Source: Collinsella sp. An7 (lineage in GTDB: Bacteria > Actinomycetota > Coriobacteriia > Coriobacteriales > Coriobacteriaceae). From it: a stretch of DNA of 48,876 nucleotides. Below the pieces are notes generated by a model that made no database searches, was not told where the DNA came from, and worked only from the letters and a program-made list of their open reading frames with translations. Both the position numbers and the translations under genes were made by a program. The stretch lies in contig NZ_NFHP01000009.1 of the NCBI RefSeq assembly GCF_002159335.1, positions 1 through 48,876 on the forward strand. Direction: 5' to 3'. Shown in pieces: positions 4,929-35,672 of the stretch. The number at the start of each line of letters is the position of its first letter. Position 1 is the first letter of the stretch.

Positions 4929-6323
4929 ATGACCCGCAAGATCCACTTTATGGAGACCATCCTGCGCGATGGCCAGCAGAGCCAGATTGCCACGCGCATG
5001 CCTATCGAGGACATGCTGCCGGTGCTCGAGGACCTCGACGCCGCCGGCTACCATGCGCTCGAGGTGTGGGGCGGCGCCACCTTTGACGCCTGCCTGCGCT
5101 ACCTTAACGAGGACCCGTGGGAGCGGCTGCGCACCATCCGCGCGCATGTGAAGCACACCAAGCTCCAGATGCTGCTCCGCGGCCAGAACCTCTTGGGGTA
5201 CCACAACTACCCCGACGACGTGGTGGCCGCCTTCGTCAAGAAGTCGGTTGAGAACGGCATTGACGTGCTGCGCATCTTTGACGCGCTCAACGACACCCGC
5301 AACCTCACCACCTCGATCCGCGCGGCCAAGGAGGCCGGCGGCGAGGTGCAGGCTGCCATCTCGTACACCACGAGTGACGTGCACACCGTGCGCTACTTTG
5401 TCTCGCTCGCCGTGGAGATGGAGCGCGCCGGGGCCGACTCGATCTGCATCAAGGACATGGCGGGCGTCCTCACGCCCGATGTGGCTACCGAGCTCGTGGG
5501 CGAGATCAAGGCCGCCTGCAGCCTGCCGCTCCAGGTGCACACGCACGGCACGGCGGGCATCGCCCAGATGACCTACCTCAAGGCCGTCGAGGCCGGCGCT
5601 GACATCATCGACACCTGCCTCTCCCCCTTTGCCGAGGGCACCTCGCAGCCGGCCACGGAGTCGATGGCAATCGCGCTCGAGGCGCTCGGCTACGAGACCG
5701 GGCTCGATATCGACCGGCTGGAACGCGTGGCCGAGCACTTCGTGCCCGTGCGCGACCGCTTCCTCGCCGAGGGCGTCCTAAACCCCAAGGTGCTGTCCGT
5801 GGAGCCCAAGGCGCTCCTCTACAAGGTACCGGGCGGCATGCTCTCCAACCTCATCAACCAGCTGCACGATCTTGGGCTCGACGACAAGTACGACGAGGTG
5901 CTCGCCGAGGTGCCGCGCGTGCGCGCCGAGCTTGGCTACCCGCCGCTCGTGACGCCGCTCTCGCAGATGGTGGGCACGCAGGCCCTCATGAACGTGGTGA
6001 CGGGTGAGCGCTACAAGGTGGTCTCGAACGAGATCCGCGACTACGTGCGCGGCATGTACGGCCGCCCGCCGGTAAAGATCAGCCGCGCGATCCGCGAGCA
6101 GATCATCGGCGAGGAGGAGCCCATCACCTGCCGCCCGGCCGACCTCATCCTGCCCGAGCTGGGAACCCTGCGGAAAGAGATTTCCTGCTATGCGCGCTCT
6201 GAGGAGGATGTGCTCAGCTACGCGCTCTTTCCCGAGCAGGCGCGCGACTTCCTCGGCCGGCGCGAGGACCCGTTCTACGACGTACCTGTGCAGGAGGTCA
6301 CCGTCTCGGTGGACGTGGCGTAG
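4929..6323 (+). CDS. oadA: oxaloacetate decarboxylase carboxyltransferase subunit (alpha, biotin domain separate)
   Basis: The 464-residue protein belongs to the pyruvate-carboxylase C-terminal / OadA / transcarboxylase 5S family, which moves a carboxyl group between oxaloacetate and biotin. Visible landmarks are METILRDGQQSQIATRM (residues 8-24, with metal and substrate ligands), GGATFD near 50, the CIKDMAG lysine near 174, and VHTHGTAG near 203. The last has the metal-binding histidines. The C-terminal half has the conserved PGGMLSNL and GTQALMNV segments. It ends without a biotin domain, which is supplied by the separate carrier gene. GAGAGGGGTGAGACCCGT precedes the ATG. Methylmalonyl-CoA decarboxylases use an unrelated alpha subunit, so oxaloacetate is the probable substrate. 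Confidence 0.92.
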   Translation: MTRKIHFMETILRDGQQSQIATRMPIEDMLPVLEDLDAAGYHALEVWGGATFDACLRYLNEDPWERLRTIRAHVKHTKLQMLLRGQNLLGYHNYPDDVVAAFVKKSVENGIDVLRIFDALNDTRNLTTSIRAAKEAGGEVQAAISYTTSDVHTVRYFVSLAVEMERAGADSICIKDMAGVLTPDVATELVGEIKAACSLPLQVHTHGTAGIAQMTYLKAVEAGADIIDTCLSPFAEGTSQPATESMAIALEALGYETGLDIDRLERVAEHFVPVRDRFLAEGVLNPKVLSVEPKALLYKVPGGMLSNLINQLHDLGLDDKYDEVLAEVPRVRAELGYPPLVTPLSQMVGTQALMNVVTGERYKVVSNEIRDYVRGMYGRPPVKISRAIREQIIGEEEPITCRPADLILPELGTLRKEISCYARSEEDVLSYALFPEQARDFLGRREDPFYDVPVQEVTVSVDVA

Positions 6324-11581: not shown

Positions 11582-11734
11582 CAACATCCTTACCCTCTCG
11601 CAGCCCTAACCCGCTCGTGCAGGGCTGGAGCCGGCGAGGTCCGCCGCGAGTTCCACAGCGAACGGGAGGCGCCAGTGGCGCCTCCCGCCGAGCGAGGACT
11701 GTCCGAAGCGCCGGACCTCGCCGGCTCCAGCCCT
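11582..11734 (-). repeat. structured intergenic repeat, copy B
   Basis: Inverted orientation relative to copies A and C. The outer stem is a perfect 23 bp (11621-11643 with 11712-11734). The inner hairpin GGGAGGCGCC-AGT-GGCGCCTCCC is perfect over 10 bp. Read on the minus strand it carries CTTCGGACAGTCCT before the hairpin, GTGGAACTCGC after it, and a tail ending AAGGATGTTG. The outer-stem sequence is unlike those of A and C, yet fully paired. Confidence 0.85.
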
Positions 11735-13497: not shown

Positions 13498-13670
13498 GCG
13501 GGCCGGGCGGGGCCGAGGTCCCGGCTTCGGACAGTCCTGGCTCGCACGGAGGCGCCACTGGCGCCTCCGGCTCGTGCGGAACTCGCCGGGACCTCGGCCC
13601 CGCCCGGCCCGCCCCCAGCTGCAGCAACACCCCGAACGCGGCGGGTTGACTCGCAGGGGGCAAGATGTTG
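13498..13670 (+). repeat. structured intergenic repeat, copy C
   Basis: The best-formed copy. The outer stem is 28 bp and perfect (13498-13525 with 13585-13612). The inner hairpin CGGAGGCGCC-ACT-GGCGCCTCCG is perfect over 10 bp. Between them lie CTTCGGACAGTCCT and TGCGGAACTCGC, as in copy A. The tail ends AAGATGTTG. It lies about 140 bases upstream of pckA, in the 585-bp gap before addA. Confidence 0.85.
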
Positions 13671-24241: not shown

Positions 24242-25174
24242 ATGGCCATCTACACATCCATCGACCAGATCATCGGCAAGACCCCGCTTCTTGAGCTCAC
24301 CGGCATGGAGCACCGCGAGGGGCTCCGGGCCCGCGTGCTCGCCAAGCTCGAGTCGCGCAACCCCGGCGGTTCCGCCAAGGACCGCATCGCACGCAACATG
24401 ATCGACGAGGCCGAGCGCGCGGGGCTTCTGCGTCCGAACGAGGGCTACACCATCATCGAGCCCACGTCGGGCAACACCGGCGTCGGCCTCTCGATGATCG
24501 CGGCGGCGCGCGGCTATCGCGCCGTCATCGTCATGCCCGAGACCATGAGCGAGGAGCGCCGCCGCCTCATGCGCGCCTACGGCGCGGAGCTCGTGCTCAC
24601 GCCAGGCTCCGAGGGCATGGCGGGCGCCATCCGCCGGGCCGAGGAGCTTGCGGCCGAGACGTCCAAGAGCATCATCGCCGGCCAGTTTGAGAACCCCGCC
24701 AACCCTGCCGCGCACTACGCCACGACCGGCCCCGAGATCTGGGAGGACACCGAGGGCACGGTCGACATCCTTGTGGCGGGCGTGGGTACGGGCGGCACCA
24801 TCTCGGGCGCGGGGCGCTACCTCAAGGAGCGCAACCCCGAGCTCAAGGTCGTTGCCGTGGAGCCCGCCGACTCGCCCGTGCTCGAGGGCGGCGTGCCCGG
24901 CCCGCACAAGATCCAGGGCATCGGCGCAGGGTTTGTGCCCAAGGCGCTCGACACCGATATCTACGACGAGATCATCCCCGTCACCACCGAGGACGCCTTT
25001 GCCACGGGTCGGGCGCTCGGTCGCGAGGACGGTGTGCTCGTGGGCATCTCGTCCGGCGCGGCGGCGTGGGCGGCGCTCGAGGTAGCCCACCGTCCCGAGA
25101 ACGCGGGCAAGACCATCGTCGTGTTGCTCGTGGACACGGGCGAGCGCTACCTCTCGACCGACCTCTTTGCGTAA
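24242..25174 (+). CDS. cysK: cysteine synthase A (O-acetylserine sulfhydrylase)
   Basis: A PLP enzyme making cysteine from O-acetylserine and sulfide. The 310-residue protein has [10 protein letters not shown] near the start, the Schiff-base lysine in NPGGSAKDR (Lys46), the TSGNTG loop that binds the substrate carboxylate, and [13 protein letters not shown] for the PLP phosphate. The serine of SSGAAAWAA near the C-terminus contacts the pyridine nitrogen. GGAGGCATC precedes the ATG. mnmA starts 19 bases after its stop, so the two are probably cotranscribed. This is sensible because MnmA needs cysteine-derived sulfur. No riboswitch or CymR-type site was recognised upstream. Confidence 0.96.
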
Positions 25175-25193
25175 ACGGCGGAGGGGAGCGCAG

Positions 25194-26321
25194 ATGGTGC
25201 AGAAGCCGCGCGTGCTGGTGGCGATGAGCGGGGGCGTGGACTCGAGCGTCGCCGCTTGGCGTCTTATCGAGGCCGGCTTTGACTGCGTGGGCGCAACCAT
25301 GATCCTGCACGACGCTGCGTCTGGCTCCCAGCTTGGCGGCTCGCCTGCGCCCGCAGGCGAGCCGGCCGACGTTGCGACGGCGCGTGGCGTGGCCGAACGA
25401 CTCGGTATCCCCTTCCATGTGCTCGACTGCCGCGCCGCGTTTGAGCAAGCCGTGGTGGAGGAGTTCGTCGCCGCCTACGAGCGCGGCGTTACCCCCAACC
25501 CCTGCTGCATCTGCAACCGGCACATCAAGTTTGGCCTCTTGTGGGACCGAGCGCGCAGGCTCGGCTGCGACTTCATGGCAACGGGTCATTACGCGCGCAT
25601 CGTACGCCGCCCGCTCGCAGACGGTCGCACGGTCCCCGCGCTCGCCAAGGCGCGCGACCTCAGCAAAGACCAAAGCTACTTTCTCTATGGGATTGGGCAC
25701 GAGGCGCTCGAGCATACCCTCTTTCCCCTGGGCGACCTCACCAAAGAAGGCGATGTGCGGCGCATCGCGCGCGGGCAGGGCTTTGCCAATGCGGAGAAGC
25801 GCGACAGCCAGGGCATCTGCTTTGTGCCAGGCAACGACTTTGCCACCTTTATCGAGCGGCGGCGCGGGCGCGCACTCCCCGAGGGCGAGGTGCTCGATAC
25901 CGCGGGCCACGTGCTCGGGCGCCACCACGGCGCCATCCGCTACACGGTGGGCCAGCGCAAAGGCCTCGGTATCGCCGCCGAGCGGCCGCTCTACGTAACG
26001 GCGATCGATGCCGTCGCCAATACGGTGACGCTCGGCAACGAGGAAAGCCTCATGGCCGGCTCGCTCGTCGCGGACGACTGGGTGTGGACCGCCCCCGCCA
26101 ACGAGATGGAGGCGGCGCTCGATAGTGCAGGGCCCGAAGGACTCGCCGTGGGCGCCAAGATCCGCTACCGCCAAGAAGACCAAACTGCTCGCCTTATGCG
26201 TGACGAGGCCGGCCGTATGCGCATCGACTTTGAGGTGCCCCAGCGCGGCATCGCCCCCGGCCAGGCCGTCGTGATCTACCGGGGAGACATCGTCCTCGGC
26301 GGCGGCACCGTCCTCCGATAA
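25194..26321 (+). CDS. mnmA: tRNA-specific 2-thiouridylase
   Basis: MnmA adenylates and thiolates uridine 34 of Lys, Glu and Gln tRNAs. The 375-residue protein has the PP-loop SGGVDSSVAAW (12-22), the first catalytic cysteine region NPCCICNRHIKFG near 102-114, GHYAR, KDQSYFLYG, and the second cysteine in GICFVPG near 209. The C-terminal beta-barrel ends AVVIYRGDIVLGGGTV. GGAGGGGAG lies five bases before the chosen ATG; a TTG nine codons upstream overlaps cysK and is less likely. Length is normal. It is followed by a 34-bp inverted repeat that may end the transcript. Confidence 0.96.
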   Translation: MVQKPRVLVAMSGGVDSSVAAWRLIEAGFDCVGATMILHDAASGSQLGGSPAPAGEPADVATARGVAERLGIPFHVLDCRAAFEQAVVEEFVAAYERGVTPNPCCICNRHIKFGLLWDRARRLGCDFMATGHYARIVRRPLADGRTVPALAKARDLSKDQSYFLYGIGHEALEHTLFPLGDLTKEGDVRRIARGQGFANAEKRDSQGICFVPGNDFATFIERRRGRALPEGEVLDTAGHVLGRHHGAIRYTVGQRKGLGIAAERPLYVTAIDAVANTVTLGNEESLMAGSLVADDWVWTAPANEMEAALDSAGPEGLAVGAKIRYRQEDQTARLMRDEAGRMRIDFEVPQRGIAPGQAVVIYRGDIVLGGGTVLR

Positions 26322-26331
26322 TGGCTCGATT

Positions 26332-26417
26332 GTTAGGTACCCGGCCATTGCACCAGCGGCAAATCATGGGTGATTTTGAACACGATTTGCCGCTGGTGCA
26401 ATGGCCGGGTACCTAAC
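26332..26417. repeat. perfect 34-bp inverted repeat with 18-base loop
   Basis: Left arm 26332-26365 (GTTAGGTACCCGGCCATTGC onward) and right arm 26384-26417 pair without a mismatch. TTTTCG follows, so it could serve as a strong terminator for cysK-mnmA. The sequence TCGATTG lies at both outer borders (26326-26332 and 26421-26427), as a target-site duplication would. A perfect stem of this length is far beyond what termination needs. Confidence 0.85.
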
Positions 26418-26480
26418 TTTTCGATTGAAAACGAAGCTCGTCCGCCTTCATCAGTGCGATAAAGGCAGGCGGGCAGAATA

Positions 26481-26515
26481 ATGGGTCAAATGGAACACGT
26501 CCCCAAATGACTCAT
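26481..26515. repeat. REP-like element, copy 1
   Basis: ATGGGTCA and TGACTCAT form the ends (one G-T pair) around AATGGAACACGTCCCCAAA. An almost identical unit lies at 35673-35710, and related ones at 29520 and 43771. Confidence 0.75.
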
Positions 26516-26639: not shown

Positions 26640-27800
26640 TTACGCCATGATCTTCTTGAAGAGCTCCACGACGGTGTCGTGATCGGCCTCGCGCGGGTTG
26701 CCCGGATAGCAGGCGTCGGCGAGGGCGTCGTCGGCGATCTGATCGAGCTCGTCAGCCTTGATGGCCTCGCAGACCTTGGGGATGTTCACGTCCTCGGAGA
26801 GCTGGCGCACGGCGGCGATGGCGGCATCGGCGGCCTCGTCGGTGGTCATGCCCGTGGTGTCAACGCCCATGGCAACGGCGACGTCGGCCAGGCGCTCAAC
26901 CACAACCGGCTTGTTGAACTCCATGGCGATCGGCAGGAGCATAGCGCAGGCCACACCGTGCGGGGTGTCGTAGTGCGCCGAGAGCGTGTGCGCCATGGCG
27001 TGGTCGATGCCCAGACCCACGTTGGAGAAGCCCATGCCGGCGATGTACTGGGCAAGCGCCATGCCCTCGCGGCCCGAGCCCGGCTCGCCGCTCTTGGCCT
27101 CGGCCACGGCGTCGCGCAGGTTCTTGGAGATGAGCTCGATCGCCTTGAGGTGGAACATGTCGGTGAGCTCCCAGGCGCCCTTGGTGGTGTAACCCTCGAT
27201 AGCGTGGGTGAGCGCGTCCATACCGGTGGAGGCGGTGAGGCCGGCCGGCATGGTGGCCATCATCTCGGGGTCGACCACGGCGACCTCAGGCGCGTCGTTG
27301 GTGTCGACGCACACGAACTTGCGGACCTTCTCCACGTCGGTGATGACGTAGTTGATGGTGACCTCAGCAGCGGTGCCGGCGGTGGTGGGCACGGCGATGG
27401 TGAAGACGGCGTGCTTGGTGGTGGGGGCGACGCCCTCGAGGGAGCGCACATCGGCGAACTCGGGGTTGTTGATGATGATGCCGATGGCCTTGGCGGTGTC
27501 CATAGCCGAGCCGCCGCCCACGGTCACGATGCAGTCGGCCTCAGCAGCCTTGAAGGCCTCGACACCGTCCTGCACGTTCTGGATGGTGGGGTTGGGCTTG
27601 ACCTCGTCGTAGAGGCTCCAGGCAATGCCCGCCTCGTCAAGCAGGTCGGTGACCTTTTTGGTGACGCCGAACTTCACCAGGTCGGGGTCGGAGCAGACAA
27701 AGACCTTCTGGTAGCCGCGACGCTGAATCTCGCCGGGGATCTCCTTGATGGCGCCGGCGCCGTGGTACGAGATGGTGTTGAGCACGATGCGGTTGGACAT
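26640..27800 (-). CDS. fucO: lactaldehyde reductase (iron-containing alcohol dehydrogenase)
   Basis: FucO reduces L-lactaldehyde from fucose or rhamnose breakdown to 1,2-propanediol, regenerating NAD+. The 386-residue protein follows E. coli FucO closely: NNPEFADVRSLEGV (111-124), PTTAGTAAEVTINYVITD (138-155) and KFVCVD. The nucleotide-binding GGGSAMDTAKA is at 95-105. The metal ligands align as Asp195, His199, His267 and His281. GGAGGCCCT precedes the ATG. There is no fucose or rhamnose cluster around it, so it may serve general propanediol or ethanol formation. Three hairpin structures lie in the 320-bp region behind it. Confidence 0.9.
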   Translation of the reverse strand: MSNRIVLNTISYHGAGAIKEIPGEIQRRGYQKVFVCSDPDLVKFGVTKKVTDLLDEAGIAWSLYDEVKPNPTIQNVQDGVEAFKAAEADCIVTVGGGSAMDTAKAIGIIINNPEFADVRSLEGVAPTTKHAVFTIAVPTTAGTAAEVTINYVITDVEKVRKFVCVDTNDAPEVAVVDPEMMATMPAGLTASTGMDALTHAIEGYTTKGAWELTDMFHLKAIELISKNLRDAVAEAKSGEPGSGREGMALAQYIAGMGFSNVGLGIDHAMAHTLSAHYDTPHGVACAMLLPIAMEFNKPVVVERLADVAVAMGVDTTGMTTDEAADAAIAAVRQLSEDVNIPKVCEAIKADELDQIADDALADACYPGNPREADHDTVVELFKKIMA

Positions 27801-35138: not shown

Positions 35139-35303
35139 CCGTGCTGACCGCGGCGAGCGGGTCGATGCGTTGCCCGACCTGCCGCGGTGGGCGGGGTCTC
35201 CTCCGGGCTCGGCGGTCTGCGGCCTCGCTGCGCGACTCGCCCCGAAGAAGACACCCACCCGCCGCTCCCGTAACATCATGGCACCGCACTGCGGAGCCTT
35301 CGG
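35139..35303. other. spacer after csoR
   Basis: Very GC-rich, no gene. It leads into a long inverted repeat. Confidence 0.5.
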
Positions 35304-35462
35304 AAAACTCGACCCCCGATGTGCGTGTATCTTTTGGGAACGTTCAGTAGCACTCTATCGCACTAAAGCGCTCAACTGGCCTTTTGTGGGGCAGAATCCC
35401 GGAAAACAGCCAAGCTATCCGCCCTCCTGCAAAAGATACACTCACATCGGGGGTCGAGTTTT
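35304..35462. repeat. 33-bp terminal inverted repeats, MITE-like
   Basis: Left arm 35304-35336 (AAAACTCGACCCCCGATGTG onward to CTTTTG) and right arm 35430-35462 pair at 32 of 33 positions, enclosing about 93 bases of lower GC. The right end runs into TTTTTT, so it could also act as a terminator for csoR. The interior has no coding frame. Size and symmetric ends suggest a small non-autonomous mobile element. Confidence 0.65.
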
Positions 35463-35672
35463 TTGAAGCTGCGTTGCAGCCCGCACGGAAGGGCTTTCTC
35501 GCACCCTGACAGAACCCCGCGAGAGCAAGGCGAACGAAGTAGGTGGGAGGCGGGAGCGCCCGCCTGAAAGGCAGCGGCGCTTTTTTCGACGCTGTTCATA
35601 ATCTGGAGTTATCAACGATTTGGAACGCGTGCCGTCCGTTTGCGCGACAGCAATCCTGGGGTCGCCGCAACC
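35463..35672. other. spacer with small hairpins, no gene
   Basis: Contains GCTGCGTTGCAGC, GGCGGGAGCGCCCGCC and a T-run near 35580. Frames open here have no family resemblance or ribosome-binding site. Confidence 0.45.

Follow-up and report, generated by a model that had tools for sequence, protein, structure and literature searches.

The long hairpin located behind mnmA in Collinsella sp. An7 is a small mobile-type repeat and not a one-off terminator, as the 86-bp palindrome that forms it is present seven times, on six contigs, in the 2.37-Mb An7 genome (18 contigs). We consider it likely that the palindrome is a small, lineage-restricted, non-coding and non-autonomous interspersed repeat; by the features tested, it represents a new, low-copy member of the broad group of small palindromic interspersed repeats, is confined to its lineage, and is neither a REPIN nor a MITE. 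The original prediction had regarded a very small mobile element as possible, and strong support for this comes from the seven dispersed copies and from the loci of relatives that lack the element, from which we infer that it has been mobile.

The palindrome downstream of mnmA

The analysis concerned a window of 48,876 nt, that is, the whole stretch of DNA under study, from contig NZ_NFHP01000009.1 (assembly GCF_002159335.1). Repeat search and covariance model placed the palindrome at positions 26332 to 26417, with the left arm at 26332 to 26368, a loop of 12 nt at 26369 to 26380, and the right arm at 26381 to 26417; no strand is assigned to it, to its flanks, or to the other repeats of the window described below. 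The arms, 37 nt each, form 36 of 37 pairs (97% complementary), 34 of them uninterrupted, and the earlier description of a perfect 34-bp inverted repeat with TCGATTG on both sides was thus accurate, in that 34 consecutive pairs and both TCGATTG copies are present. Among perfect inverted repeats of the window with a loop of 3 to 20 nt, the runner-up comprises 14 pairs, and the longest in each of 12 dinucleotide shuffles of the window reached 11 or 12 pairs; the stem far exceeds chance expectation.

Each end of the palindrome consists of the conserved terminal 12-mer GTTAGGTACCCG, on the forward strand at 26332 to 26343 and on the reverse strand at 26406 to 26417, both assigned on the basis that the 12-mer is found in the genome 14 times, always at an end of one of the seven copies. 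The element lies 10 bp after the stop codon of mnmA (tRNA 2-thiouridine synthase; 25167 to 26321, forward strand) and faces a convergent neighbor, the gene of a lactaldehyde reductase (Fe-ADH; 26640 to 27800, reverse strand).

A family of whole palindromes

The original prediction proposed a search for other copies of the arms, and six more palindromes were found in the An7 genome, at C5:134, C11:110485, C14:80742, C15:3813, C17:14468 (C17a), and C17:60418 (C17b), with 83 to 90% identity to the window copy. A covariance model built on eight sequences, namely, the seven An7 copies and the copy of Collinsella sp. An307 (G003), recovered the same seven copies in the An7 genome and no further convincing one. 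The genome contains 14 occurrences of the 12-nt end GTTAGGTRCCCG, each of them an end of one of the seven copies, and the reversed control pattern had no match there; moreover, no solo arms, half elements, or larger element with these ends were found in the An7 genome. It follows from the occurrence of the 12-mer solely as 14 paired ends that the repeated unit is the whole palindrome. Furthermore, the loops align between copies, mostly as GATTTTG or close to it, which points to one common ancestor and not to seven independent palindromes.

The mismatches between the arms of the seven An7 copies amount to 25 pairs, only 1 of which is located among the 12 outermost positions (binomial P of 0.0007 under a uniform spread). 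In particular, the ends GTTAGGTACCCG are near invariant and the inner stem is variable. The statistics on mismatches and flanks refer to the seven An7 copies, with the An307 copy left out, and alignment A2, its fold, and its pair counts refer to all eight sequences.

The genomic contexts of the copies are mixed: the window copy lies between convergent genes, the C14 copy between tandem genes, the C15 copy 5' of a DUF4143 gene, and the C5 copy next to a segment that recurs at contig ends. Such a mixture argues against a family of terminators. Three copies (window, C14, and C17a) are found in spacers that hold another repeat family, and about 85 bp with about 78% identity, consisting of a repeat and a terminator-like stem, are shared beside the palindrome, in mirrored order, by the window (26428 to 26514) and the C17a spacer (C17:14372 to 14455). 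It follows that some copies could stem from the duplication of larger segments.

An eighth candidate, at C14:186586 to 186656, matched the model with 27 bits and was not counted, as it is a different long hairpin, whose further matches share only short stretches with the arms of the family (best of four shuffle tests, 0.021). Repeats that carry a motif resembling TGCGGTTCACTCANCTAAACGGCAAAA form another group in the genome, in some cases within long hairpins, and this group includes this same hairpin (L090) together with C13:169558, C13:192435, and C15:56610.

Flanking sequences and the apparent target-site duplication

The two TCGATTG copies had been read as a target-site duplication, an interpretation that the family does not sustain. 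The pair is asymmetric about the palindrome: the left copy (26326 to 26332) overlaps the arm by one base, as the arm starts with the final G of TCGATTG, and the right copy (26421 to 26427) begins 3 nt past the arm. At the seven An7 copies, direct repeats across the junctions reach at most 7, 4, 4, 4, 5, 4, and 5 nt, so that the window is the only one of seven with a flanking match above 5 nt, and the An307 copy has no junction direct repeat of 4 nt or more. Under the identical search rule, about 2.8% of random flank pairs show an exact match of at least 7 nt, and seven An7 copies were examined.

The flanks of all copies fit a symmetric consensus, with CCNGATA before and TATCNGG after the element, of which the window flanks CTCGATT (26325 to 26331) and TTTTCGA (26418 to 26424) are variants; C occupies position -7 in 11 of 14 flanks, and A occupies position -1 in 12 of 14. 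In the outer 8-nt flanks, the matching between loci is 0.44, against 0.26 for DNA drawn at random nearby (0 of 3,000 draws reach 0.44). The value stays the same if comparisons among the three flanks located in similar repeat units are omitted. Since TCGA is self-complementary and the flanks are symmetric, a direct TCGA repeat is to be expected at the window copy, and only three extra letters are coincidental; the apparent duplication of TCGATTG is thus probably due to chance. The flank consensus represents either a worn terminal part of the element or the kind of target it prefers, and the sharp fall of conservation from position 1 to position -1 would favor a target preference.

These data bear on the alternative that best survives, namely, that the element is a MITE of a cut-and-paste (DDE) insertion sequence, in which the arms would be terminal inverted repeats and either TCGATTG (7 bp) or TA (2 bp) would be the duplicated target. 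The size of 86 bp, the lack of coding capacity, the conserved ends, the repeated TCGATTG at the window copy, and the agreement of the 2 nt on either side of the element at four of seven copies (TT, TA, TA, and TG) would all suit such an origin. However, the other six An7 copies are devoid of a direct repeat longer than 5 nt, and a symmetric consensus ending in TA is sufficient by itself to yield TA on both sides, although a duplication of only 2 bp is possible. A parental insertion sequence with the same ends was searched for and rejected: neither it nor an isolated end or single arm of it occurs in the An7 genome, and BLAST of 59 other genomes returned only the An307 palindrome. Likewise, an IS630/Tc1-type transposase was discarded as the mover, as DDE_3, the one DDE family tested, is absent from the An7 genome. 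On balance, we regard a MITE origin as unlikely.

Distribution and empty loci

The element was detected in 2 of 60 genomes by BLAST, in 2 of 396 genomes of the class by the two-ended pattern, and in 2 of 9 genomes of the genus by the covariance model, in each case those of An7 and An307. The latter has a single copy, which is orthologous to the C15 copy and whose flanks align throughout. When genome_contigs, in which An7 was possibly not included, was scanned for the two-ended pattern, An307 and one metagenome-assembled genome (MAG) of Bdellovibrionota were returned. No match to the element was found in phages or plasmids, nor in viral_contigs in two scans, and viral carriage was rejected on these grounds. 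The element is restricted to one Collinsella-related lineage. In the literature on such repeats in Collinsella and Coriobacteria, we found no paper on this repeat, and among the papers containing GTTAGGTACC or longer forms, none concerned repeats, as judged by title.

The nine genomes of the genus, one per species, were screened for the flanks of all seven copies, and 20 orthologous stretches, a part of those listed, were fetched. Where both neighbors could be recognized, the element was missing in five of five fetched stretches for the window locus, four of four for C14, four of four for C17a, and three of three for C11; four loci, that of the window among them, are therefore without the element in all the relatives compared. 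According to the covariance model, the genomes with empty loci hold no copy anywhere, except for the single C15-type copy of An307. Both C17b stretches and two of the six C17a stretches (G005 and G006) matched on one side only and were not counted as empty, and neither was the C5 locus, which has no two-sided orthologue.

The original prediction had also proposed a search for empty sites with a single TCGATTG at the window locus. The element is absent there in five of five relatives; however, no clean site of that kind was found, as the spacer around the element is also missing or unalignable in the relatives compared (in G005, 113 bp separate the matched segments of mnmA and the reductase gene). 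These are accordingly empty loci and not clean sites, and the spacer may have been deleted or replaced as a whole. If the copies were inserted, a clean empty site would read CCNGATATCNGG or similar.

Comparison with known palindromic elements

REPINs, as described in excerpts of PMC3116915, are doublets of REP sequences that form hairpins and are moved in trans by RAYTs. The An7 element resembles them, as they appear in these excerpts, in its two inverted arms and spacer, which can form a hairpin, in its dispersed intergenic location, in its non-autonomous character, in the strong conservation of the presumed recognition parts, and in the lack of a supported target duplication. Different from REPINs as they appear there, it has 7 copies and not hundreds, one continuous 37-bp stem in place of two separate REP hairpins, and no solo arms, singlets being usual in REP families. 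Furthermore, the palindrome does not adjoin the Y1 transposase gene of the genome, no GTTAGGTRCCCG occurs outside the seven copies, and the ends are paired (GTTAGG/CCTAAC), with no unpaired GTAG or CGTC tag of the REP kind.

In the portion of PMC3733652 that deals with TIRYT transposases (TIRtrons), a Y1 gene is flanked by long inverted repeats, which also make up moderately abundant dispersed families; different from these, no GTTAGGTACC ends are present on either side of the one Y1 transposase gene found in An7. A different palindromic repeat of the window, at 26480 to 26515 (GGGTCATTTGGGGACGTGTTCC type; AATGGGTCAAATGGAACACGTCCCCAAATGACTCAT), with many matches in the An7 genome, many of them partial, resembles the TGGGGACGGGT repeats around that gene (L031) and, within the same portion of the source, the GGGGWSAS motif and the terminal repeats of TIRtrons. 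The MITEs RUP, NEMIS, and ERIC, as summarized in part of PMC3733652, share with the An7 element a non-coding and dispersed nature, inverted ends, and a size range (70 to 300 bp) that includes it; different from them, the An7 element is nearly all arm, has no supported target duplication, and has no parental insertion sequence that could be found.

Integron attC sites were considered by sequence only, based on excerpts of PMC3053210. The bounds GTTAGGT and ACCTAAC fit GTTRRRY and RYYYAAC, but the order of the core sites is reversed (RYYYAAC followed by GTTRRRY in attC, GTTAGGT followed by ACCTAAC here), and the stem has no extrahelical bases. The identity with an attC site was rejected owing to the wrong order of the core sites.

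Transcription termination and selection on the stem

Termination of cysK-mnmA had been named as the plain alternative, and we considered an ordinary bidirectional terminator, or a stem at mRNA 3' ends, between mnmA and the convergent lactaldehyde reductase gene. The proximity to the mnmA stop codon, the very stable fold (-77 kcal/mol with flanks), and the TTTT directly after the right arm of the window copy, a partial fit to the T-run that follows the GC-rich stem of an intrinsic terminator, are consistent with it, and termination is conceivable as a side effect. However, the same palindrome stands at six unrelated sites, the T-run after the arms is not conserved across the seven copies, the mnmA locus of five relatives does without the palindrome, and a scan for terminators found none, although its loop limit of 8 excludes a loop of 12 nt. 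Termination as the nature of the element is thus improbable; the window copy may also form the 3' end of the mnmA transcript, and any such role is secondary. For annotation, caution is advisable, as the long hairpin behind mnmA is repeat DNA and not a conserved regulator.

The original prediction further held that so flawless a stem is recent or strongly selected, which our data do not show. In the alignment of eight sequences, 5 of 37 pairs are changed on both sides, and pairing drops from 94% to 29 to 39% when the partner is slid, which would suit a structured RNA; however, column shuffles reach the observed pairing conservation in 46 of 500 cases and the observed covariation in 45 of 500. 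The C15 copy and its An307 orthologue differ at 4 of 86 positions, compared to an identity of 95 to 97% in the flanks, and all four differences sit in pairs that are unmatched in C15 and of which none is unmatched in An307. The C15 copy drifts like its flanks, with no visible selection on the stem. Given in addition that no neighboring gene is conserved among the copies and that Rfam returned only two microRNA families at 41 to 43 bits, compared to gathering thresholds of 99 to 100, as generic hairpins do, a conserved structured RNA or cis-regulatory element under stem selection is the least credible of these alternatives and very improbable.

Some variants occur in both arms of a copy, namely, G19 in the window copy and CCTGAG in C17b. 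Template switching homogenizes the arms of inverted repeats, as reported in excerpts of PMC8604942 and PMC8794818, and the two-arm variants can have arisen in this way.

A possible mechanism

The copied unit is the entire palindrome of 86 bp; should the weaker flanks of 7 nt belong to it, the unit would measure about 100 bp. In the step that we propose with most confidence, a protein acting in trans would recognize either the folded hairpin or its conserved ends, and whole palindromes would be copied or moved by it to intergenic sites with no long duplication of the target, in a way comparable to that proposed for REPINs and Y1 (HUH) transposases. An enzyme that reads the ends or the folded strand best accounts for three features, namely, that whole units have spread, that their ends are conserved, and that long duplications are lacking. 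By analogy, the Y1 (HUH) class would be the likeliest, with a probability that we place somewhat short of even, the remainder falling to an unrecognized or lost enzyme. The sole Y1 transposase gene of the An7 genome (L031) is flanked by TGGGGACGGGT inverted repeats, which are different from the palindrome, and scores 75.6 bits against the NCBIfam model of the REP-associated tyrosine transposase, below the cutoff of 80. A RAYT was rejected as the direct partner owing to this difference in the repeats, and no partner transposase with the ends of the palindrome was found in the An7 genome.

Second in confidence, the arms would be made or kept perfect by template switching during replication and not by selection on RNA. 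Third, with the window copy located between convergent genes, mnmA transcripts would end in a very stable stem. The low copy number, the occurrence as whole units only, and the absence from most relatives make the element a usable case for the study of how such elements start, and it allows one to ask which enzyme moves them and whether they stay perfect because template switching corrects the arms.

A palindrome in Bdellovibrionota and other inverted repeats

The match in the Bdellovibrionota MAG (L033, 7235 to 7314) is a perfect palindrome of 80 bp with the same 11-nt ends GTTAGGTACCC, a boundary at the same base, and an unrelated interior; it is present in one copy in its genome and was the sole match among 114 genomes in a search of the phylum. 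By a rough estimate, one or a few chance matches of the two-ended pattern are expected in the 257-Gb collection, and homology is therefore not claimed. If palindromes with constant ends GTTAGGTACCC and exchangeable interiors were moved by an unrecognized enzyme that reads the ends alone, the system would extend across phyla, a scenario that we hold to be highly doubtful. About 1 kb from the Bdellovibrionota palindrome there is another long inverted repeat (L033, about 6170 to 6316), which has GGGTGCCAGGCACC ends.

Other inverted repeats were observed in the window itself: one at 35298 to 35468, with arms of 39 nt that are 92% complementary and 93 nt apart, and two GC-rich ones at 13498 to 13612 and 11621 to 11734, with arms of 28 nt (100%) and 27 nt (96%), respectively, and 59 to 60 nt between the arms.
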